The notes below the pieces were generated by a model, which was given only the letters and a program-made list of their open reading frames with translations, was not told the origin of the DNA and did not search any database. This document shows, one piece after another, positions 926 through 19,076 of a stretch of 20,548 nt of DNA. How positions within the stretch are numbered: the first letter of the stretch is position 1; each line of letters opens with the position of its first letter. A program made the translations under genes and the position numbers. Source of the stretch: Candidatus Auribacterota bacterium (lineage in GTDB: Bacteria; Auribacterota; JAFGBW01); contig JAFGBW010000201.1 of the NCBI GenBank assembly GCA_016932965.1, positions 1 to 20,548 on the forward strand, in the 5' to 3' direction.

Positions 926-1891
926 ATGCCCCGCATACAAAAAACTATTTATATGCCCGTCAAAAAATTATCCGTTATCGTGCCTTGTTATAATGAGGCT
1001 GATGTCATTACTGATTCCTATTCCAGCATTAAAAAAGTCCTGGAAACCAATTTCCCGGATCTGCATGAAATGATTTTCATTGACGACGGCAGCACGGACA
1101 ACACCTTGTCCCTTCTCAGGGAACTGGCCGCAAAAGACAGCACAGTCAAAATCATAACTTTTTCAAGAAATTTCGGACAGCAGCCGGCCATTTCAGCAGG
1201 CATCCACTGTTGTCAGGGGGAACTCGCAGTCATCATGGACGCCGACCTCCAGGACCCTCCCGCCCTCATCCCCGAAATGGTGAGAATGCATGAAAAAGAA
1301 AAAGCCAACGTGATTTACGCGGTCAGAAGGCAGCGGCTGGGTGAAGGGGCTTTTAAAAAGATCACTTCCTCTCTTTATTACCGTATCCTGAATTATCTCT
1401 CGAACATGGAACTGCATGAGGATACCGGCGATTTCAGGCTGATAGACAAAAACGTGATCGATGCCTTCCGCGCTTTGAAAGAAAAAAATAAATACATACG
1501 GGGACTCATCAGCTGGCTGGGTTTTAAGCAGATACCGGTTTATTACGACAGAAGCCCGCGTTTCAAGGGCAAGACAAAATATTCGCTGAGCAAAATGCTC
1601 AGTTTTGCAGGAACCGGACTGTTATATTTTTCCACAAAACCTCTTCTCTTGACGGTCATTTTAGGGTTTCTCTGCACTCTGGTCGGTCTTTTTTTAGGCG
1701 TATTTTTCGTCATTAAAAAGGCCCTGTATCCGCAGGAGTTTGTGCACGGCTGGACATCCACCATCATCATCATCATCTTTTTCGGAGGGATCCAACTCAT
1801 CTCCATCGGAGTATTAGGCAGATACATCGGGAGCATTTTTGAAGAAATAAAAGGCCGGCCTGAATACATCATCAAAGAGCAAATCAATTGA
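926..1891 (+). CDS. GT2 polyprenyl-phosphate glycosyltransferase (DPM1/GtrB/ArnC-like)
   Basis: This 321-residue protein has the full pattern of the DPM1/GtrB/ArnC family: LSVIVPCYNEAD (15-26), DDGSTD (53-58), DADLQDP (105-111, metal/nucleotide-sugar binding), TGDFRL (167-172) and RFKGKTKYS (212-220), then two membrane segments near 233-264 and 278-299 as in GtrB. Family members move a sugar from a nucleotide donor to undecaprenyl phosphate at the inner membrane face; the product feeds GT-C enzymes outside. Which sugar cannot be read. The ATG at 926 has a weak GAG site 10 bases upstream; a second ATG at 953, just before the core, is possible but lacks a site. The next gene, a GT-C-like membrane protein, begins 4 bases after the stop, so donor maker and putative user are co-transcribed. 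Confidence 0.9.
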   Translation: MPRIQKTIYMPVKKLSVIVPCYNEADVITDSYSSIKKVLETNFPDLHEMIFIDDGSTDNTLSLLRELAAKDSTVKIITFSRNFGQQPAISAGIHCCQGELAVIMDADLQDPPALIPEMVRMHEKEKANVIYAVRRQRLGEGAFKKITSSLYYRILNYLSNMELHEDTGDFRLIDKNVIDAFRALKEKNKYIRGLISWLGFKQIPVYYDRSPRFKGKTKYSLSKMLSFAGTGLLYFSTKPLLLTVILGFLCTLVGLFLGVFFVIKKALYPQEFVHGWTSTIIIIIFFGGIQLISIGVLGRYIGSIFEEIKGRPEYIIKEQIN

Positions 1892-1895
1892 TCAC

Positions 1896-3353
1896 ATGAA
1901 CGAGCATAAGCTGGAACACCCGCTATTTTTGTTCATCAGCGTCACGCTCATTCTTCTGACCGCCAATGGAGAATATCTTTTTGATCCCCCTTACTGGGAC
2001 GCCCAGGGAGGATCTTTCCTTCAAGCCGCCTGGCTTATTGAAAACAGCTTTGATTATCTCTGGCTTTTTCATGAGAAGGGTTATATGCAGGGAGGGCCTA
2101 ATGTCTATTATCTCAATATCGTGCCTTTGCTGTACGCTGTCTTTCTTATATTCATCAAACCGGCCTTGGTTTTTTTTATCCTGCATCTTTTAAACATCTT
2201 CTGCACAGCTGTCACCTGCGTTGTCTTTTATCGGATTGCCAGAAGCGTTTTTTCATCCGGACTCTCCGTTTTGTTTTGTTTTGCCTGTCTCCTCAATCCC
2301 ATTCTGTCCGGACAGACCGCGGGCATCAATATGGAGCTTTATCTCTTGTTATTCTCGGCTTTGTCCATTTACTGCTTTCATGTCGGAAAATACCCCCTTG
2401 CTGTCATCCTATGCATCAGCGCCTATTTTTTTAAATCCAGCGCCATCATACTGGGAATGGCATACGGAGTATTTTATCTGGCCGAATCCGTAAAAAGTCT
2501 GCTGAAAAAGGAAAAACCATCCTTTCCCTATACCCTGTGTCTTCCTGTTTTCATCATGGTCATTTTGAGCTTTGTGTCCTCGGATTCAGACAGATATTTT
2601 TCCCAGTCAAACCTGATGGAGAAAATATCGCGGTTTCAAGAGGAAATCGTCCATCATTTCCCGGACCAGGGACTGATTCTTGCCCTGATCATTGTGACGG
2701 CTGTTTATTATTTTTTCAAACACGGTTTAAAAAACAGCTTCATGAATTTTCTTCTCATCTATACTCTGGGCTGTTATGCCGCCTATAGCAACTGCTTCTG
2801 GCCATTGCCCAGATATACGGCCTCCTATATTTTCCCGGCCTTTCTATGTTCAGGATTCCTGCTTGCAAAAACCTTCCGCAATCAACTCATGGCCTTTTTG
2901 CTTTTTTCTTCGCTTTCCATATTTGGAATGATGAACCAGCACGGAAAATTTCTCCCCAAGCTCCATCCGCAAATATCCAGGGCCGGGGCCAATCTTGAAA
3001 GAAGCAGGGAATATCTGACGGATTTGGAAGCCAATATCAGGACATGCCGTTTCATCGAAAACAATTATGCTGACGCGGAAATCGGAGTGAGCAGGAATTT
3101 CTACTGGATGCTGACCAATCCCTTCCTGGGATATGTGACGCGAACTGTGGAGAAAGCATTTATTCTTTCATCTGATTATTTCCAAAGCGAAGCATTTGAT
3201 TTAAAAAACGCGGATACCTTGTACCTGTATGCACCCCATTTCATCAGGCCTCCTGAGTTGAATGACCACTTTCAAATACTGTATGTGGATCAAAGTCTTG
3301 AAGGGACCCCAGTGGTGTTGTTTAAGAAATCCGGATTAACCGGGAATGGATAA
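1896..3353 (+). CDS. Polytopic membrane protein, GT-C glycosyltransferase-like
   Basis: The 485-residue protein is hydrophobic over residues 10-350, with roughly ten membrane segments, and ends in a soluble domain (about 355-485). After TM1 comes a loop with acidic residues (D30-PPYWD35-AQGG), the position where GT-C enzymes carry their catalytic or metal-binding Asp/Glu; WDAQGGSFLQAAWL resembles the start of PMT_2/ArnT-type proteins. Family members take a sugar from a polyprenyl-phosphate carrier. The gene follows the GT2 gene by 4 bases, which is the usual pairing of donor synthesis and transfer. Sequence identity to any named family is not evident to me, and the acceptor (protein, lipid or polysaccharide) is unknown. 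The start ATG at 1896 has no strong ribosome site, which suits translational coupling. Confidence 0.7.
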   Translation: MNEHKLEHPLFLFISVTLILLTANGEYLFDPPYWDAQGGSFLQAAWLIENSFDYLWLFHEKGYMQGGPNVYYLNIVPLLYAVFLIFIKPALVFFILHLLNIFCTAVTCVVFYRIARSVFSSGLSVLFCFACLLNPILSGQTAGINMELYLLLFSALSIYCFHVGKYPLAVILCISAYFFKSSAIILGMAYGVFYLAESVKSLLKKEKPSFPYTLCLPVFIMVILSFVSSDSDRYFSQSNLMEKISRFQEEIVHHFPDQGLILALIIVTAVYYFFKHGLKNSFMNFLLIYTLGCYAAYSNCFWPLPRYTASYIFPAFLCSGFLLAKTFRNQLMAFLLFSSLSIFGMMNQHGKFLPKLHPQISRAGANLERSREYLTDLEANIRTCRFIENNYADAEIGVSRNFYWMLTNPFLGYVTRTVEKAFILSSDYFQSEAFDLKNADTLYLYAPHFIRPPELNDHFQILYVDQSLEGTPVVLFKKSGLTGNG

Positions 3354-3380
3354 TAAAACATGAATTTAAAAAAGCATTCA

Positions 3381-3406
3381 TATCCTTGCCTGAACATGGC
3401 AAGATA
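3381..3406 (+). other. Stem-loop between the GT-C gene and selC
   Basis: CTTGCC at 3385-3390 pairs with GGCAAG at 3398-3403 around a 7-base loop, and TAT/ATA outside can add three pairs across one bulged C. There is no T-run after it, so it is not a convincing intrinsic terminator; it could be a weak terminator or a processing element ahead of selC. Confidence 0.3.
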
Positions 3407-3453
3407 AAACCTGATTCATTCAAAACATAACGGACTGAACTGAAACAAAGATG

Positions 3454-3548
3454 GAAGGTGTTTAGTGTCTGGCGATACTCGCAGTCTTCAAAACTGTTGT
3501 GGGGCCGAACAGGTTCAGGTTGGGTTCGATTCCCATACGCCTCCGCCA
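3454..3548 (+). tRNA. selC: Selenocysteine tRNA (anticodon TCA)
   Basis: The 95-base gene folds as a bacterial tRNA-Sec. The D stem is six pairs (AGTGTC 3464-3469 with GATACT 3474-3479) closing a four-base loop. The anticodon arm GCAGT-CTTCAAA-ACTGT (3481-3497) carries TCA at 3488-3490. A long variable arm (GGGCC 3502-3506 with GGTTC 3512-3516) follows, then a T arm with TTCGATT. The 3' acceptor strand ACGCCTCC (3537-3544), discriminator G and encoded CCA (3546-3548) complete it. Length, six-pair D stem and TCA anticodon separate it from tRNA-Ser and from suppressors. The acceptor stem is imperfect: the 5' strand pairs in register only if A3455 opposes C3543, or if one A is bulged. The organism therefore likely reads some UGA codons as selenocysteine, with SelA, SelB and SelD elsewhere. 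Confidence 0.92.
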
Positions 3549-3585
3549 TATTCTTCTCTTTTAATAAATTACCTCCTGTTCATGA

Positions 3586-3942
3586 ATGTCTTCAGAGTCC
3601 GCGGGAAAAAAACTGATCCGATCCTATGGGGAAGGATTATTCAAGGCAAAATTGAGAAGATTGCTGGAAAAAACGCGCCATGATATCATTTCAGGCGCAG
3701 ACAAAGCATTCCTTTCAGGAAAAGAGAGGGAACAGACTCTTGAAAAACGCCTAAAAAAACTGATGCTGTTATTCAAGCAGCAGGAGAGGGTCACTTTGGC
3801 CGAATTCAGAAAGGAAACCGGACTCAACAGAAATCTCGCCGTGACCATTCCGGAACAGATGGATGAAAAAGGAGTGGCCAGACGCAAAGGAGAAGGAAGA
3901 ATTTTAAGAATTGATCCTGCTGATAAAGATATAATCAGCTGA
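3586..3942 (+). CDS. Stand-alone SelB-type C-terminal winged-helix protein
   Basis: The 118-residue protein begins at ATG 3586, just after an in-frame TGA and 37 bases past selC. Residues 54-108 follow the pattern of the last winged helix of SelB: VTLAEFRKETGLNR, then a helix ending MDEKG, then VARRKGEGRIL, matching the family pattern (h)T-x-x-x-FR-x-x-x-G-x-x-R ... E-x-x-D-x-x-G-x-x-R-x-G-x-x-R-h-L. In SelB this domain holds the SECIS hairpin of selenoprotein mRNA. SelB's GTPase domain and its other winged helices are absent, and the 50 residues in front are basic and helical without a clear counterpart. It could be a remnant of selB, a free SECIS- or tRNA-binding protein, or an unrelated small winged-helix DNA binder. 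No Shine-Dalgarno site is visible. The position beside selC is the main support for a selenocysteine link. Confidence 0.6.
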   Translation: MSSESAGKKLIRSYGEGLFKAKLRRLLEKTRHDIISGADKAFLSGKEREQTLEKRLKKLMLLFKQQERVTLAEFRKETGLNRNLAVTIPEQMDEKGVARRKGEGRILRIDPADKDIIS

Positions 3943-4008
3943 AATTTTACTATCGTTAATCATACAGAAGATGAATTTTAATTTGAAGCATTGAATTAGT
4001 AAGAAGCC

Positions 4009-5403
4009 ATGAAATCCTTGATTGAACTACCAACTCAAAATTCAAAATCCACAACTCACAACTCTTTCCTCGTCGGTCTCCTTCTTTTTCTTGTCATCGT
4101 CATTTCCTATTCTCCCTCTTTGAAAACAGGGTTCCTCTGGGATGACAAGGGCTCGGTTCAATTCAATCCCTATCTTTTACGGGTAGACGTCAGCACTTTT
4201 TTTTCCAATTGTGAAGCCTCATTACCCCATGGGAACAAGGAAATATACCGTCCATTGAGAACGCTGTTTCTCAGCCTGATCCGCTGTTTTTTTGGTCCTG
4301 ATCCGATGCCTTTCCACGCCTTTAATATGCTGCTTCATTTCCTCGTCTGTCTGATGATTTATCATTACCTCCGCATTCTTTTTTCCAGATCAACCGCCTT
4401 TTTAACCAGCCTGCTTTTTGCCATCCATCCGGTTCATTCGGAATCCCTGAATCTGATCATCGGCAGCGCTGATTTGTTGTGCCTTTTTTTTCTTTTATTC
4501 GCCCTGACCGCTAACCACATGTCCGGATACAGAAAAACCATTTTAACGGCTATCTTTCTGCTGTTTGCCCTGTTCAGCAAAGAAACTGCCGTCATCGGTT
4601 TACCTCTTGTCTGGCTGGATGATTTCCAGCAGGGGAAAAAAAACCTTAAAAAAATTCTATTCAACGTCCGGACTTTTCTCTATCTGGGGATCACATTCTT
4701 TTATCTGTTCATCCGCTGGTCCCTAACCGGTAAGATGACCCAATTAAGCCATCATGGAAATACCTGGCTGCACCACATCGACTTTGCCTTGCAGGGATTT
4801 CTTACCTATATGAGGCTTTTTATCTGGCCGCGGAACCTCAAACTGGACTACATTTTTTTCCCCGGCCCTTTTTGGCTGACCGCCCTGGTATTTTTCATTG
4901 TCGGCACGGGCATCTTTTGGCTATACAAAAAAAGCCCGGCTGCTTCTCCATTCAGGTATGGACTGGCGTGGTTCTTTATCTGCTATCTTCCTATATCCAA
5001 TATACTTCCGATTAAAACCGTGGTCTCAGAACGGCTGATGTATCTGCCCTCTTTAGGGTTGTGTCTATTTTTCTCCGCCCTGATTGAACAATGGATGGCA
5101 CGGAAAAAAATACAGGGACGGATTTTTTTCTTTTCTCTTGCATGTGTTTTTTCTTTTTTGACTCATGCAAGAAATAAGGAATGGAACAACGAAGACGTGT
5201 TCTGGAAATTAAATCTGCAAAGGGCTCCGATGAGCGCCAGGGCCCATGCGAACTATGCCGTCAGGATGATGCTGCAAAAGGATTACAAAAGCGCCGAGTG
5301 CCTGTTTGAAACAGCGGTCGCCTACAATCCGAATGAAAAGGCTTTCAGACAAGGGCTGGAGAGGGTGAGACAGGAAAAAAACAAACTCTTCAGCCATGAA
5401 TGA
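4009..5403 (+). CDS. TMTC-like GT-C membrane glycosyltransferase with C-terminal TPR
   Basis: This 464-residue protein carries the signature of TMTC/DUF1736-type GT-C proteins: FLWDD at 42-46 in the first periplasmic loop, YRPLRTLFLSL (80-90), HPVHSES (140-146) followed by a long membrane helix, SKETAV (190-195), SERLMYLPSLG (340-350), then RNKEWNNEDVFW and one TPR-like helical pair (about 405-442). TMTC members are O-mannosyltransferases in animals; bacterial relatives are thought to glycosylate exported proteins, but substrate and sugar cannot be seen here. There are about ten membrane segments. The first 20 residues (PTQNSKSTTHNS) come from a low-complexity CAACTCAAAATTC-like stretch, unusual for this family. 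A weak site (AAGAAG) precedes the ATG. The next two genes, also with TPR or glycosyltransferase content, lie in the same direction. Confidence 0.85.
   Translation: MKSLIELPTQNSKSTTHNSFLVGLLLFLVIVISYSPSLKTGFLWDDKGSVQFNPYLLRVDVSTFFSNCEASLPHGNKEIYRPLRTLFLSLIRCFFGPDPMPFHAFNMLLHFLVCLMIYHYLRILFSRSTAFLTSLLFAIHPVHSESLNLIIGSADLLCLFFLLFALTANHMSGYRKTILTAIFLLFALFSKETAVIGLPLVWLDDFQQGKKNLKKILFNVRTFLYLGITFFYLFIRWSLTGKMTQLSHHGNTWLHHIDFALQGFLTYMRLFIWPRNLKLDYIFFPGPFWLTALVFFIVGTGIFWLYKKSPAASPFRYGLAWFFICYLPISNILPIKTVVSERLMYLPSLGLCLFFSALIEQWMARKKIQGRIFFFSLACVFSFLTHARNKEWNNEDVFWKLNLQRAPMSARAHANYAVRMMLQKDYKSAECLFETAVAYNPNEKAFRQGLERVRQEKNKLFSHE
4030..4064 (+). repeat. Degenerate CAACTCAAAATTC-type short tandem repeat
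   Basis: The stretch is made of near repeats of (C)AACTCA and AATTCAAA inside the 5' end of the TMTC-like gene. It is pyrimidine-poor on this strand and unlike the sequence around it. Similar heptamer-like repeats occur as intergenic short tandem repeats in some bacteria; here it is read as protein (residues 8-19). Confidence 0.4.
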
Positions 5404-5506
5404 AAAACCTTGCCTTCAAATTTAAGTTTGATTTAATAATTCCTTTTCCTAAAGAATTCGGTGGAAATAATCAGCCATTAAAAATACAGGAGATAAATAA
5501 ATAGCG

Positions 5507-5980
5507 ATGAACCATAGCAGGATTATAATCAGCCTCATATTGTGTCTGTTTTTGTTCTCTTGGAAGGCTTTTGCAGAAAGTCCTGAACGACTCAATAATA
5601 AGGCCATCAATAAATACAAAGAAGGAAACACACAGGAAGCCCTGGAGTACATGAACCAGGCAATCCAATTGTCCCAGGGGAACCCGATTTTATACAGCAA
5701 CCGAGGCGTTCTCAAAGCTCGTCTCAAGGATGAATTCGGCGCTCTAGCCGATTACAACAAGGCCATCGAGCTAAAACCTAGTGACGCTCATTGTCTGGCC
5801 TTGATCTATTTCAACCGGGGAAAACTCAAATTAAAACGGAATAAAATCGAAGCGGCCATCCGGGATTTCGACAAGGCCATTTCCTTTGATCCCAAGTACG
5901 CTCCTCCTTATAAAGCCCGGGCAAAAGCCAAATGGAAAAGTGCTCAGGCGGATTTCATCCTGTATCACAAAAAGAAATAG
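5507..5980 (+). CDS. Secreted TPR protein
   Basis: The 157-residue protein starts with a signal peptide (basic NHSR, a hydrophobic core and AFA before ES, cleavage near residue 23). It then has three tetratricopeptide repeats at about 26-59, 60-93 and 98-132, each with the usual G/A and D-P positions (NPILYSNRG, ELKPSDA, SFDPKYA), and a basic tail. It should be exported to the periplasm or be a membrane-facing adaptor; TPRs bind proteins, and no catalytic domain is present. AGGAGA at 5488-5493 serves as ribosome site, though 13 bases from the ATG is long. Its TAG stop shares one base with the GTG start of the following glycosyltransferase gene, so the two are translated together and may act together. 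Confidence 0.85.
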   Translation: MNHSRIIISLILCLFLFSWKAFAESPERLNNKAINKYKEGNTQEALEYMNQAIQLSQGNPILYSNRGVLKARLKDEFGALADYNKAIELKPSDAHCLALIYFNRGKLKLKRNKIEAAIRDFDKAISFDPKYAPPYKARAKAKWKSAQADFILYHKKK

Positions 5981-7134
5981 TGAAAATCGCTCTATATATC
6001 GGCAGAGGGATTGCGGCCCCTTTCATTGTCAGATCTTCCGGAGAGGCTTTTCAAAAATCCGGACATGAAATCCAATTTGTTCCCATCCGGGAAGAGAAAC
6101 AGGAAATCAGTCCGCTGCTTCGGGATTTTTCTCCGGACCTGGTCATCGCGCTCGATCATACCGGTATCCATGACGAAGAATTTGCCAAAGCAGGGGTGTT
6201 CTATTGCACCTGGTTTGTGGACCATCCTTACTACTATGTCGACAAAGACAACATCAACGATTTTCATCTGGCAGCCGTAACGGATTCGTCTTTCATGGCC
6301 CCTTTGGCTAAAATCGGATGTTCCCGGGTTGTTTATTGCCCTTTAGCTTATGATCCGACCCTTTTCCGCTTGGCCCCCCGCGACACTGAGCCTGAAATGG
6401 ATATATCCTATGTGGGCAGTTTCTCCAATCTGCCCGATCATTTCCGTCAGGACCGCCTGAAGCAGTTTCACCCCTTTTTCAATGTGATCGTGGAAGAGGC
6501 CCTCTCAATCAAGAAAGCACATCCGCAAATGCCCTTGTTCGAAACCCTCCTGGAAACGGAAAAAAACCTGAAAACGGATTTTTTAAAGAATTTTAGCGCC
6601 GCACAAATCGGTGCCATGATTTATCTCATGGATATCGAAAAGGATGCGACTCATAAAATGCAGATGGTCAAGACATTTGCATCCGAAAAACTCACCATCT
6701 ATGGAAACGAAAACTGGCAGATTCTTCTCGATAAGGGCTCCGTTTTTTCCTTTAAAGGAGGAGCGGTTTACGACAGGGGACTCTCTGATATCTATAAAAG
6801 GACAAAAGTGAATCTGATCGTCACGCGTCCCCAGCTTGCAAACGGCGTGAATCAGCGGGTGTTCGACATCGCCGCTGTCAGGGGTTTTTTCCTTTGCGAC
6901 GAGCGAGAAGGACTGAAGGAGATTTTCCCTTCTGTCTGGGAAAAAATCCGCTACCGGAATTTCGATGAGATGAAAGAAAAAGCCGATTATTTCCTGTCAC
7001 ATGAAAAGGAAAGAAAAGAGATAGCCCGGGAACTCCATCACAGCATCGCAGAAAACCACACCTATGAAAAAAGAATGTCCAATCTTTTGGACGGATTGAA
7101 TAATTTCATGAGGAAAAAGAAAAGCCCGGAATGA
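5980..7134 (+). CDS. CgeB/DUF3880-type glycosyltransferase (GT-B)
   Basis: I place the start at GTG 5980, inside the TAGTG junction with the previous gene; the frame stays open to 5932, but those residues overlap the TPR gene and precede the natural first strand KIALYIGRGIA. The 384-residue protein has two Rossmann-like halves. The first (1-135) shows SPDLVIALDHTG and CTWFVDHPYYY (76-86), typical of the DUF3880/CgeB N-terminus; the second begins at MDISYVGSFS (140-149) and contains NLIVTRP...GVNQRVFDIAAVRGFFLCDEREGL, the sugar-nucleotide binding part of the glycosyl transferases family 1_2. It is cytoplasmic, without membrane segments. Related proteins glycosylate spore coat, flagellin or maturation proteins; the acceptor here is unknown. 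The stop codon lies in the loop of the terminator that follows. Confidence 0.85.
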   Translation: MKIALYIGRGIAAPFIVRSSGEAFQKSGHEIQFVPIREEKQEISPLLRDFSPDLVIALDHTGIHDEEFAKAGVFYCTWFVDHPYYYVDKDNINDFHLAAVTDSSFMAPLAKIGCSRVVYCPLAYDPTLFRLAPRDTEPEMDISYVGSFSNLPDHFRQDRLKQFHPFFNVIVEEALSIKKAHPQMPLFETLLETEKNLKTDFLKNFSAAQIGAMIYLMDIEKDATHKMQMVKTFASEKLTIYGNENWQILLDKGSVFSFKGGAVYDRGLSDIYKRTKVNLIVTRPQLANGVNQRVFDIAAVRGFFLCDEREGLKEIFPSVWEKIRYRNFDEMKEKADYFLSHEKERKEIARELHHSIAENHTYEKRMSNLLDGLNNFMRKKKSPE

Positions 7135-15023: not shown

Positions 15024-16448
15024 ATGTTTACCTCCAGAACGACCCTCCAAGAAATGTTTCTTCTGTTTATCTTCCTCGCAGCCATTTTCGGGGCAATCTA
15101 CAAGGATTATCCTCTTTTATCATCATACGGTGCTGATGAAGATTTCGATGTCATGAAGCCCTTTCTGATGGATTCAGGTTATTCTCTCTATAAGGACATT
15201 TGGAACGACCAGCCACCGGTCTTCAGTTATATTCTCTGGGCATGGCTTAAAATATGGGGCTTTTCGCTTCCTGCGGCGAGAATTCTCATAACGCTTTTTT
15301 CATCTGCCCTCTTACTCGCGCTTTATTCTGCAGTGAAAATGATCAACGGACGAAAAGGAGCCTGGTTCAGCATGCTTTGTCTAATCCTGAGTCCGTATTT
15401 CCTTCAGATGAGCAGCATCGTCTTGATCGGCATGCCTGCCATGAGTCTATTGATGATCTCATACGCTCTGGCCGTATATTATGAAAAACAAGGAACCCTT
15501 TTTTCATTTCTTGGTTCCTTAATCTTTTTTGTGCTGGCCGCGGGAACAAAACTAATGGCATGTCTGGGTTTGCCGTTTCTCATTATCATATGGATCATGG
15601 GAGAGAGAAATCATGGGGCTTTAAAACTTTCCAACTTCTTATGGATCCTGTCCGCTCTTTTTCTCTTGAGTTCCTATTATTTTCTTCTAAAGGACCAGTT
15701 ATTAGATACCCATGTCATGGCAAGACATCGTATAGGCGGGTATCATTTCCGCACTATTCTTTCCTGGATTTACAGCCAAAGTTATTGCTTACTGGCAGCC
15801 TGTTTTATTTTCCTTAAATTCTTCCAATTAAAAAAAACAGTTGCTCTTATGTCTCTTTGCTGGTTTATCTGCACACTCGTTATCTTACTGCTGCATCGTC
15901 CTGTCTGGCATCATTATTCCCTTTTTTTAAGCGTTCCTCTTTGTCTTTGCGCCGGAATAGGATTCAATGAAATGATCCAAATGAAAAAACAGATCTTAGC
16001 CAGCCTGGGATTATTAGGGATAGGACTGGTATTGGGAGGATCCATACCCTCTCATTTAAAAAAATACCGTGAAATTCATGATTTAACCTATCAGGAACAC
16101 GCGCCACTCATGGAATGTGTATGGTTTCTGAAAAACGTCCCGACTTCAGGTCCTGTTTTCACAGACAGGCCAATTATTGCCTTTCAAGCAGGAAAATGTG
16201 TTATTCCTGAATTATGTGTGTATTCTCTAAAACGGTTTTATACAGGTTATTTGAATGACGATTACCTCACTGAGGCGCTAAAAAAATATTCGCCTGATGT
16301 CCTTTTGTTCTATAATCCTGTTCCCATGAATTATTCAAAACTGATACATTATATTCATGCGCATTATGTATCCTCTTATTCACCTGATGGAAGCAAATTC
16401 TTTTTTAAAAGGCAGAAAACTACATGGAAAACAAAAATATCAAACTGA
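15024..16448 (+). CDS. GT-C membrane glycosyltransferase (PMT_2-like)
   Basis: I choose ATG 15024, which gives a 474-residue protein starting MFTSRTTLQEMFLLFIFL. The frame is open upstream to 14859, but those 55 residues are charged and overlap the divergent gene. TM1 (10-26) is followed by GADEDFDVMKPFLMDSGYSLYKDIWNDQPPVFSYIL (written here in its parts: D38/D40 acidic pair, then DIWNDQPP at 58-65), the classical loop of PMT_2-type GT-C enzymes. About ten further membrane segments follow, then a soluble end (about 400-474) with TSGPVFTDRPIIAFQAGK, where many GT-C proteins carry a small alpha/beta domain. The last 25 bases overlap the next gene, so the two are coupled. The truncated gene at 19143 is similar in arrangement. 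No clear ribosome site is seen before 15024. Confidence 0.85.
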   Translation: MFTSRTTLQEMFLLFIFLAAIFGAIYKDYPLLSSYGADEDFDVMKPFLMDSGYSLYKDIWNDQPPVFSYILWAWLKIWGFSLPAARILITLFSSALLLALYSAVKMINGRKGAWFSMLCLILSPYFLQMSSIVLIGMPAMSLLMISYALAVYYEKQGTLFSFLGSLIFFVLAAGTKLMACLGLPFLIIIWIMGERNHGALKLSNFLWILSALFLLSSYYFLLKDQLLDTHVMARHRIGGYHFRTILSWIYSQSYCLLAACFIFLKFFQLKKTVALMSLCWFICTLVILLLHRPVWHHYSLFLSVPLCLCAGIGFNEMIQMKKQILASLGLLGIGLVLGGSIPSHLKKYREIHDLTYQEHAPLMECVWFLKNVPTSGPVFTDRPIIAFQAGKCVIPELCVYSLKRFYTGYLNDDYLTEALKKYSPDVLLFYNPVPMNYSKLIHYIHAHYVSSYSPDGSKFFFKRQKTTWKTKISN

Positions 16449-17830
16449 TCCAGAATGCGCTTGAAAATCACAAGCCCCTGACTGAATTGAGATTATCCAG
16501 GGATTTTAAAAACATTTCCCTTTCAGGCTGCACCCTTCAAGGCCTCCGTTTTAAAGGGGCAGAATTTATCTCTTCCATCATAACACAGGTTGTGTTTATC
16601 CATTGCGATTTCACTGACTGCCTGTTTGAGAAAACACAGATGGAGGGATGCCGCTTCGAGCAATGCCAGATGAATTACTCCGTGTTCTATCAAACCCGAC
16701 AGGATCAAGGGAATTACACTAACTGTCAATTTTCCGGGACCTCTTTCGAAGACTCTTCATTCCAGGATGTGATTTTTGAAAAATGCGGCATTACTTCACT
16801 GGATTCATTCAACTGTATTCTGAAAAAAGTGACGATAAAAAACGGGGAAATCAAAAACAGCATTTTTTTTAAAACCCAGTGGAATGACAGCAACTGGATT
16901 GAAAATAACTTATCAAATCTTCAAACAATCAAATCCGTCTATCATGCCACGCATTTCATTAAAAATCACCTCTCCCAAGCCATATTTAAATCATGTGAGT
17001 TTCATGATCTGGACTGGAAAGAAAATCAGCAAACAAAAAACAGAATGATCAAATGCACGGGGATACCCTCTGAGATCCTTCATGAAGTCATCCTGACCGG
17101 CGGACAGACCGAAACGTTCCTCCGGCGTTTTTTCAGAAACAAAATCTGTTTATCCGTCACTATTTTGGTTCTGATTTCACTCTCCTATATCCTGTTCCGC
17201 ATTTCTTTCACGTCACAATACCTCTATGCCAGATACATCATCCGGGAATCTCTAACAGACATGAAACGACTATATTTATCAAAAGAAATGGCTGCTCTCA
17301 TGAAGATCACCTTTTCCCAAAAAAACATCATTCCTCAGCTGAACCAGGCTCTGATTGACAAACGAAACAAATTTTTTCCCGAAGCCAAAAAATTATTCAT
17401 GTCATGCCTTAAACAGGTTCCAGTTTCACCGTCTGACAACCTCCTCTTTTTCTGGCTGGTCAATGAAATCTTTATCTGCTCCGAAAAAGATCAAGACTGG
17501 ATGCAGTCTTTCCATGTTTTCAAACGACTTTTGCCTTCTTCCATGCATCAGCAATTACGTTATGATGTTATCACGAAAATCGAACGTAAATTTCTTCCTG
17601 AAACAACGTTAGCTGTCCTTCAGGAATACCTTTTAGAATTAAAAAATGATTACCAAAAAATGGAACAAGTCGTAACCTTCATGAACGGTTTGCACTATCT
17701 CCCCTTCAGAAAAAAGGCGGGAAGGATGATCCGCTCTTTTTTAAGACGCAAAATAAACGAATATCCTCAGGACAGGGAAAAATACCAGCGCTTAAAGGAA
17801 ATCGTGGAATTCTGGAACGAAACGCTGTGA
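16424..17830 (+). CDS. Pentapeptide-repeat/TM/helical protein
   Basis: The 468-residue protein has three parts. Residues 28-210 are degenerate pentapeptide repeats, seen as a five-residue rhythm of F, L or C (for example FIHCDF, CLFEKTQMEGCRF), which would fold as a right-handed four-sided beta helix; many Cys (C37, C61, C66, C76, C81, C101, C121, C131, C191) sit at the same phase. One membrane segment follows (241-262), then a helical C-terminal half of about 200 residues without catalytic motifs and without a recognised family. The N-terminal half has no signal peptide, so it is probably cytoplasmic and the rest periplasmic. The gene starts 25 bases before the GT-C gene ends, with AAAGG about 12 bases upstream of the ATG. 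A partner or assembly protein for that enzyme is possible; this is inference from coupling. Confidence 0.75.
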   Translation: MENKNIKLIQNALENHKPLTELRLSRDFKNISLSGCTLQGLRFKGAEFISSIITQVVFIHCDFTDCLFEKTQMEGCRFEQCQMNYSVFYQTRQDQGNYTNCQFSGTSFEDSSFQDVIFEKCGITSLDSFNCILKKVTIKNGEIKNSIFFKTQWNDSNWIENNLSNLQTIKSVYHATHFIKNHLSQAIFKSCEFHDLDWKENQQTKNRMIKCTGIPSEILHEVILTGGQTETFLRRFFRNKICLSVTILVLISLSYILFRISFTSQYLYARYIIRESLTDMKRLYLSKEMAALMKITFSQKNIIPQLNQALIDKRNKFFPEAKKLFMSCLKQVPVSPSDNLLFFWLVNEIFICSEKDQDWMQSFHVFKRLLPSSMHQQLRYDVITKIERKFLPETTLAVLQEYLLELKNDYQKMEQVVTFMNGLHYLPFRKKAGRMIRSFLRRKINEYPQDREKYQRLKEIVEFWNETL

Positions 17831-17990: not shown

Positions 17991-19076
17991 CTAAAAAGGC
18001 ATGAATGAATGCAATAGGGAGGGTAAAGCGTCACAATTCATCCAGCAAAGAGGACAATCCCCTTTCCTGATCTTATCTCTCAATTCACTCCCGGCCTGTT
18101 TGAGAAGCATGTTCAATTCATGATTAACATGCAGGATGTTACCAAAGGATTCTCTGATAAAAGAACAGGGACGGACATTTCCGTAAGGATCAATCGAAAG
18201 TGTAGCAAAAGAGGCATAACACGGGACCGGCGGTTTACGGCTACGGACATAGGAAATGGCCTGTTTGATAAACATTTTATTGAGGATATCCGGATAATCG
18301 CGAATCTGGTATATCCCAACCAATTGTTTCAGTACGGAAATGAACTCCTCTTTTTCTTCAATATGAAAGACACTGTCCTGATCATCCTCGTTATGAAAAA
18401 GTGCCGCATTATGACAAAGAGTAAAGACCATATTGCGTTTATATTGGCTGTATAATTCCAGGATATTCCGCCAATTCATCCTGGATATGGTGGTTTGAAA
18501 ATAAACTTTTAGATTTGGGATGCCTATTTTAAGAAGCCTGTCCCTGCTTTCCATCACTTTCTCATATGCTCCGCTGACTCCACGTATGGAATCATGAATG
18601 GATTTTTGACCATCTAAACTCAAAGCTACGTAAAGGGGAACAGTCCTATTTTCCTTCAGAATATCCCTTACCTGTTTTTCTATGATTTCCGGAAGCAGTC
18701 CGTTTGAATCTATCCACAGCATAAGTAGATTCTTGCATTCTCTGACAGAAGTCAGGACGATATCCGCCAGATCTTCCCTTAAGAAAGGTTCCCCTCCTTC
18801 AAAAGAAGCGATAAACAGATTCCGCCCCAGCGAAGATAAAAATTTTTTATAATCCTCCAGAGTGAGTTCTTTTCTGATCATCTCCTCCTGGTTAACCGTG
18901 TAAAGTTTCCAGATACGACAATGTCTGCAGAAAGAATTACATCGATAAGTCAGGTTGAAATTGATCTTATAGGGAAGCGGTATCCCATTCACACGGTTTC
19001 GGTATAAATGCACTTTGAAAAACCGGCATAAAAAATGTATATATTTATTAATCCTCATGATACATCTTATAGACAT
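17991..19076 (-). CDS. Radical SAM/SPASM-like protein
   Basis: The 361-residue protein has the radical SAM cluster motif C46-NSF-C50-RH-C53 (CX3CX2C), the SAM-binding GGEP at 94-97 and LSLDG at 152-156. The C-terminal part has five cysteines in a SPASM/twitch-like order (C286, C304, C341, C344, C348) with DPYGNVRPC and FGNI, the usual surroundings of auxiliary iron-sulfur clusters. SPASM members modify peptides, or dehydrogenate sugars and alcohols; the substrate here is not visible, and no precursor peptide gene was found nearby. It diverges from a GT-C gene, so a role in glycan or glycoprotein modification is possible. Two ATGs are candidates: 19076, and 19058 six codons later; neither has a strong ribosome site. 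I keep the longer form. An extended -10 (TGGTATAGT) lies 25 bases upstream. Confidence 0.88.
   Translation of the reverse strand: MSIRCIMRINKYIHFLCRFFKVHLYRNRVNGIPLPYKINFNLTYRCNSFCRHCRIWKLYTVNQEEMIRKELTLEDYKKFLSSLGRNLFIASFEGGEPFLREDLADIVLTSVRECKNLLMLWIDSNGLLPEIIEKQVRDILKENRTVPLYVALSLDGQKSIHDSIRGVSGAYEKVMESRDRLLKIGIPNLKVYFQTTISRMNWRNILELYSQYKRNMVFTLCHNAALFHNEDDQDSVFHIEEKEEFISVLKQLVGIYQIRDYPDILNKMFIKQAISYVRSRKPPVPCYASFATLSIDPYGNVRPCSFIRESFGNILHVNHELNMLLKQAGSELRDKIRKGDCPLCWMNCDALPSLLHSFMPF

Follow-up and report, generated by a model that had tools for sequence, protein, structure and literature searches.

The 118-codon open reading frame (ORF) behind the tRNA-Sec gene of this bacterium is best read as part of the decaying scar of a selC-selA-selB operon in a genome otherwise without selenocysteine (Sec) decoding, a reading that we hold at a probability of about 0.92. 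With Sec decoding otherwise gone from the genome, the ORF is most likely without function. Within the window (the whole 20,548-nucleotide stretch analysed), the locus consists of selC, the 5′ end of selA and the 3′ end of selB, because two colinear SelA pieces precede the SelB match. The elements follow one another in the order selC (3454-3548), selA′ (3560-3699, in two frames), junction (3700-3765) and ′selB (3730-3909), and the ATG of the ORF at 3586 lies 37 bases past the encoded CCA end of selC, the spacing given in an earlier note on this DNA. The features are as follows:

3454-3548, + strand: selC, tRNA-Sec, anticodon UCA, with G73 and CCA encoded (ARAGORN; RF01852)
3560-3607, + strand: selA 5′ remnant, first piece, frame A (FNKLPPVHECLQSPRE), matching SelA N-terminal profile columns 13-28
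3606-3612, + strand: run of seven A's, where the SelA match moves from frame A to the ORF frame (-1 frameshift)
3607-3699, + strand: selA 5′ remnant, second piece (KKLIRSYGEGLFKAKLRRLLEKTRHDIISGA), ORF residues 8-38, matching SelA profile columns 29-59
3586-3942, + strand: chimeric 118-codon ORF, SelA N-terminus joined to SelB C-terminus, called from ATG
3700-3765, + strand: probable deletion junction zone between selA′ and ′selB, placed by adding the SelA and SelB profile scores at each possible split
3730-3909, + strand: selB 3′ remnant, last winged helix of SelB, ORF residues 49-108 (SelB profile, Pfam SelB-wing_3, fold)

The SelB-derived half is the easier one to recognize. Residues 49-108 of the ORF correspond to SelB profile positions 573-632 of 634, and SelB-wing_3 (PF09107) is the sole significant Pfam family of the ORF (residues 63-107, E = 3.3e-10, 39.8 bits against a cut-off of 23.2), the ORF being the single match to this family in its genome. 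A SelB profile made without the ORF picks out the ORF and nothing else from the six-frame translations of the whole window. The AlphaFold model, built with SelB C-termini, is a winged helix with a mean pLDDT of 75 (about 84-92 over residues 51-110); its eight top PDB matches are SelB mRNA-binding fragments, with modest Foldseek E-values of 0.02-0.04, the fold matches including 1wsu, 2pjp, 2ply and 2uwm, and its weaker fold matches include other regulators. The 118-residue product with a SelB C-terminal winged helix described in the earlier note is therefore borne out by the Pfam family, the SelB profile and the fold alike, and the profile check turned up no better match to a non-SelB winged helix. 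The NCBIfam selB model (TIGR00475) is touched by the ORF only at positions 534-580 of 581, so the ORF lacks a GTPase domain, as had also been stated; the EF-Tu-like GTPase domain of SelB (GTAGH[IV]DHGK) is not found in it.

The winged helix has, in addition, been altered at positions that SelB hardly ever changes. When compared with 87 full-length SelBs, the ORF has Asn in place of the Lys of the SRKYA motif (invariant in 87/87), Ala in place of a Thr present in 86 of the 87 and Thr in place of a Pro present in 73, and a further Pro stands within the conserved PLLE helix. The Arg, the Asp and the last Arg of the SelB winged helix are retained, and the Leu at the Tyr position is no lesion, since E. 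coli SelB has Leu there too. The RK motif and Thr that are conserved in SECIS-binding winged helices are not kept in the ORF.

Because some genomes have the order selC-selA-selB, SelA was tested as the source of the first half of the ORF, using a profile of 34 SelA N-termini from which the window was left out. With this profile the ORF ranks first among 5,593 translated segments of its own genome (background of 147 kb; 14.2 bits, the next segment reaching 5.4). The first piece (3560-3607) scores 14.3 bits ungapped (P = 7.5e-6, 1 in 132,990 windows), and the second scores 22.8 bits ungapped, the top of 83,582 own-genome windows with the next at 12.7; in 1.14 Mb of unrelated loci, 20 bits for the second piece are surpassed just once, by an authentic SelA whose gene is broken. 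In SelA numbering the second piece follows the first without a gap and in the SelA order, the join at columns 28/29 falling on the A7 run; about 46 SelA N-terminal positions are present over two frames, with the LPPV motif (LPxV in SelA) followed by the next helix. Frame A is closed by a TGA at 3614-3616, and no in-frame ATG, GTG or TTG exists between selC and the LPPV motif. In leave-one-out tests, genuine SelA N-termini reach median scores of 26 bits for the first piece and 31 bits for the second, which puts the pieces of this locus on the degraded side. Curated Pfam and NCBIfam models (PF12390 included) gave no SelA family for this part at E values up to 10, and the identification rests for that reason on our own profile and its background tests; when entropy weighting is left out of the profile the ORF drops to fifth place, so that the ungapped test provides the strongest evidence. 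Two independent pieces joined colinearly beside selC make the SelA identification convincing, and by these matches the first ~40-48 residues of the ORF are derived from SelA. An origin of this N-terminus from SelB WH2 or a linker was considered and rejected, as the SelB profile is silent for residues 1-48 and the SelA profile matches. The description as an orphan winged helix, which the earlier note had given, consequently fits the last ~60 residues, while the SelA origin of the first ~40-48 had been overlooked.

Summed profile scores per split point place the best SelA/SelB split near residues 42-48 (about 3711-3729). The 12-mer AAAAAAACTGAT is present twice in the window, at 3606-3617 and 3753-3764, 147 bases apart, one copy at the SelA frameshift and the other close to the zone of the selA/selB junction; the repetition may be due to chance.

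An intact counterpart of the proposed parent operon is found in locus L055 of genome G052, in which selC (3870-3963) is followed by selA and then selB on one strand; among the genomes studied here this order was seen in one. Starting from such an operon, one deletion of ~2.9 kb would have taken most of selA together with the whole of selB apart from its final ~60 codons, so that the selA start now runs into the SECIS-binding winged helix of selB, immediately downstream of selC. The size is estimated from the L055 gene lengths, by which about 400 SelA and 560 SelB codons would be missing. Decay would have followed, with loss of the selA start codon, the -1 shift in the A7 run, replacement of SelB-specific residues and the breaking of two tRNA base pairs; the A7 frameshift could also be an assembly error. 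That the ORF is a relic of selB, one of the possibilities raised earlier, is in this way supported and extended, because the relic would comprise selA as well as selB, joined by a deletion.

The tRNA gene matches RF01852 with 59.6 bits (gathering score 47) and has the anticodon UCA, G73 and CCA of a functional tRNA-Sec. Its score is below the 66-80 bits of seven selC genes from SelB-encoding genomes, and the 8+5 paired acceptor/T stem is not complete, as acceptor pair 2 (A.C) and the outer T-stem pair 49-65 (U.U) are both unpaired. In selC genes from SelB-encoding genomes (n = 22), the outer T-stem pair is closed in 22/22 and acceptor pair 2 in all except L081, a gene whose ends could not be set because it has no CCA. 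Acceptor-stem bulges, including bulged 12-bp variants, occur in apparently functional tRNA-Sec (PMC5330540), and selC is for this reason counted as mildly, not certainly, damaged; an initial view of the acceptor lesion as certain decay was toned down given these published variants.

Could the fusion be a working small protein, its SelA part holding tRNA-Sec and its winged helix an mRNA hairpin, and thereby assist, compete in or regulate selenocysteine decoding? All 118 codons are open, the codon use is gene-like (79th percentile of the genome's own genes and top 0.3% of out-of-frame segments), the winged-helix fold is predicted with good confidence, and the ORF stands directly behind selC. The open frame and codon use are also what a working gene would show and, with a selC above the Rfam cut-off carrying UCA, G73 and CCA, they speak against the scar reading; gene-like codon use is, however, expected of a fairly recent relic too, because the parent gene ends were coding. 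Against a working protein stand the absence of Sec genes from the assembly, the loss of invariant SelB residues, the broken tRNA stem pairs, the lack of a recognizable ribosome-binding site and the lack of the ORF from every other genome searched. No Shine-Dalgarno-like sequence was seen upstream of ATG 3586. In the whole assembly, no match was obtained for the SelA catalytic domain (PLP-dependent, PF03841) or for formate dehydrogenase alpha, and nothing exceeded the cut-off for the SelB GTPase (top match EF-Tu) or for SelD, whose sub-cut-off matches we read from their sequences as ThiL-type and PurM proteins. A full-length selB elsewhere in the genome, for which the earlier note had suggested a search, is likewise not found over cut-off, and of the set selA, selB, selC and selD that defines the Sec-decoding trait, only selC is whole in the assembly. 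With the catalytic domain of SelA, the SelB GTPase, SelD and formate dehydrogenase alpha absent, the suggested role as helper or competitor in selenocysteine decoding finds no support, and a working protein of this kind is very unlikely.

Nor is the arrangement conserved. The ORF or the selC-ORF pair was sought in 43 other genomes of the phylum and found in none, the locus is missing from G001 and G002, two genomes of the same order, and a peptide-pattern search of genome contigs gave no close relatives. Synteny with the same-order genomes yielded nothing, since neither G001 nor G002 encodes a homologue of the 485-aa upstream neighbour; G015 has none either. A pair that occurs in no other genome of the phylum, with the invariant Lys of SelB lost, leaves the proposed function as a regulator of selC unsupported as well. 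We likewise regard as improbable, to a similarly high degree, that a small chimera of a SelA N-terminal part and the SelB SECIS-binding domain has been retained in a new role, for instance as a selenium-independent binder of tRNA-Sec or of an mRNA hairpin.

As to the surroundings, the ORF is flanked by a gene for a 485-aa membrane protein upstream and a 464-aa PMT-like protein downstream, and a cluster of glycosyltransferase-like and membrane mannosyltransferase-like genes (926-7134) surrounds the Sec relic. Further along the window, 16424-17830 encodes a pentapeptide-repeat protein with a sub-cut-off match to HalA, a Hailong defence effector (46.9 against 250 bits), and 17991-19076 (- strand) a radical SAM/SPASM-like protein that many NCBIfam maturase models match weakly, none near its cut-off.

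The assembly (3.14 Mb in 300 contigs) is 92.6% complete, so the absent Sec genes could sit in the missing part of the genome, above all if they are clustered. This leaves room for a split SelB, in which the GTPase half, SelA and SelD lie in the unassembled 7% and the ORF is the active SECIS-binding half, and a recognizable selC would suit such an arrangement. We consider it very improbable, since the N-terminal part of the ORF is SelA sequence and not a SelB part, the SECIS-binding helix carries changes, three or four Sec genes would all have to have escaped assembly, and the SelB-encoding genomes inspected showed no split SelB. A SelB-wing_3 match over the cut-off is present in 157 of 384 genomes. 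Among the 384, no other stand-alone SelB winged helix was found; a recurring family of split or orphan SelBs was considered and rejected, as the other short SelB-wing_3 ORFs fetched and inspected were cut at contig edges or lay in frameshifted genes.

G015 is the only other genome of the 44-genome phylum with a SelB (a 687-codon open frame), and a tRNA-Sec lies nearby. At its locus L050, positions 4190-5908 encode a 540-aa AIR-synthase (SelD-like) protein with a C-terminal carboxymuconolactone-decarboxylase domain; this gene ends in a TGA that is followed at once by the first base of selC, both genes being on one strand, and selB (219-2270) is nearby on the opposite strand. In G047 (L056 and L013), which is 100% complete, the SelB-wing_3 match is in a 597-codon open frame and no tRNA-Sec exceeds the Rfam cut-off (best 44.5 bits), perhaps because the tRNA is non-canonical. 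The open-frame SelBs of L200 (G173; 4136-5686, 517 residues) and L192 (G065; 2455-4275, 607 residues) are without middle portions of the usual winged-helix region.

An assembly artefact, by which the cell would have an intact selCAB operon of which the assembler skipped 2.9 kb, could be imagined for an assembly fragmented into 300 contigs. It would not account for the missing start codon of selA, for the frameshift in the A7 run, for the substitutions at SelB positions or for the unpaired tRNA positions, nor for the absence of selD, a gene not necessarily in the operon, and is extremely improbable. That a winged-helix protein of another family stands beside selC by chance, as the commonness of the fold and the weaker matches to other regulators might suggest, is refuted by the SelA fragment between the winged helix and selC and by the SelB profile match, with SelB-wing_3 as the sole significant Pfam family and SelB-SECIS structures as the top fold matches, and has next to no chance of being correct.

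Taken together, a decayed selC-selA-selB operon is the reading that we prefer, and its meaning goes somewhat beyond this genome. Loss of Sec decoding in bacteria is mostly inferred from the presence or absence of genes, while here the scar can be read directly, apparently as one deletion that took out SelA and SelB at a stroke, with selC and two gene ends left over. A recognizable tRNA-Sec gene or a SelB-wing_3 match alone does not show that selenocysteine is used, a warning that is relevant to surveys in which tRNA-Sec is used to score genomes for the Sec trait.

When set beside known proteins, ORF residues 49-108 are homologous to the last winged helix of SelB (TIGR00475; PF09107) and have nearly the same end, but the GTPase domain and the earlier winged helices are missing, and the invariant Lys and near-invariant Thr are replaced. 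With SelA, the L-seryl-tRNA(Sec) selenium transferase (PF03841; N-terminal region PF12390), the locus has about 46 N-terminal positions in common; unlike SelA, it lacks the whole catalytic domain, contains a frameshift, has no start codon and is too diverged for PF12390. Gene order and strand are those of selC-selA-selB operons such as that of L055, in which selA stands directly behind selC, but here an internal deletion would have spared no more than the outermost parts of selA-selB; PMC8124441 likewise mentions a selCAB operon.

In ARAGORN predictions, selC near selB is downstream of it in 13 of 15 loci, which speaks against a selC-selA-selB parent. In Alphaproteobacteria and others, selC is known to sit inside selB or to overlap the 3′ end of an intact copy (PMC8124441). 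Such overlaps resemble this locus in that selC and selB sequence run together; here, however, selC precedes the selA remnant, and nesting of the Alphaproteobacterial kind is ruled out by this difference in order. Loss of the Sec trait is widespread (PMC1794560), and Yersinia pestis strains carry a selB pseudogene with one frameshift while selA, selC and selD are present (PMC1273633). As in these cases, Sec genes remain here as wreckage after decoding was lost, although, in contrast to Y. pestis, nearly everything is gone. Relics of lost Sec decoding are thus already known, and this locus is a clear new example of them, ordinary in kind and unusually legible.
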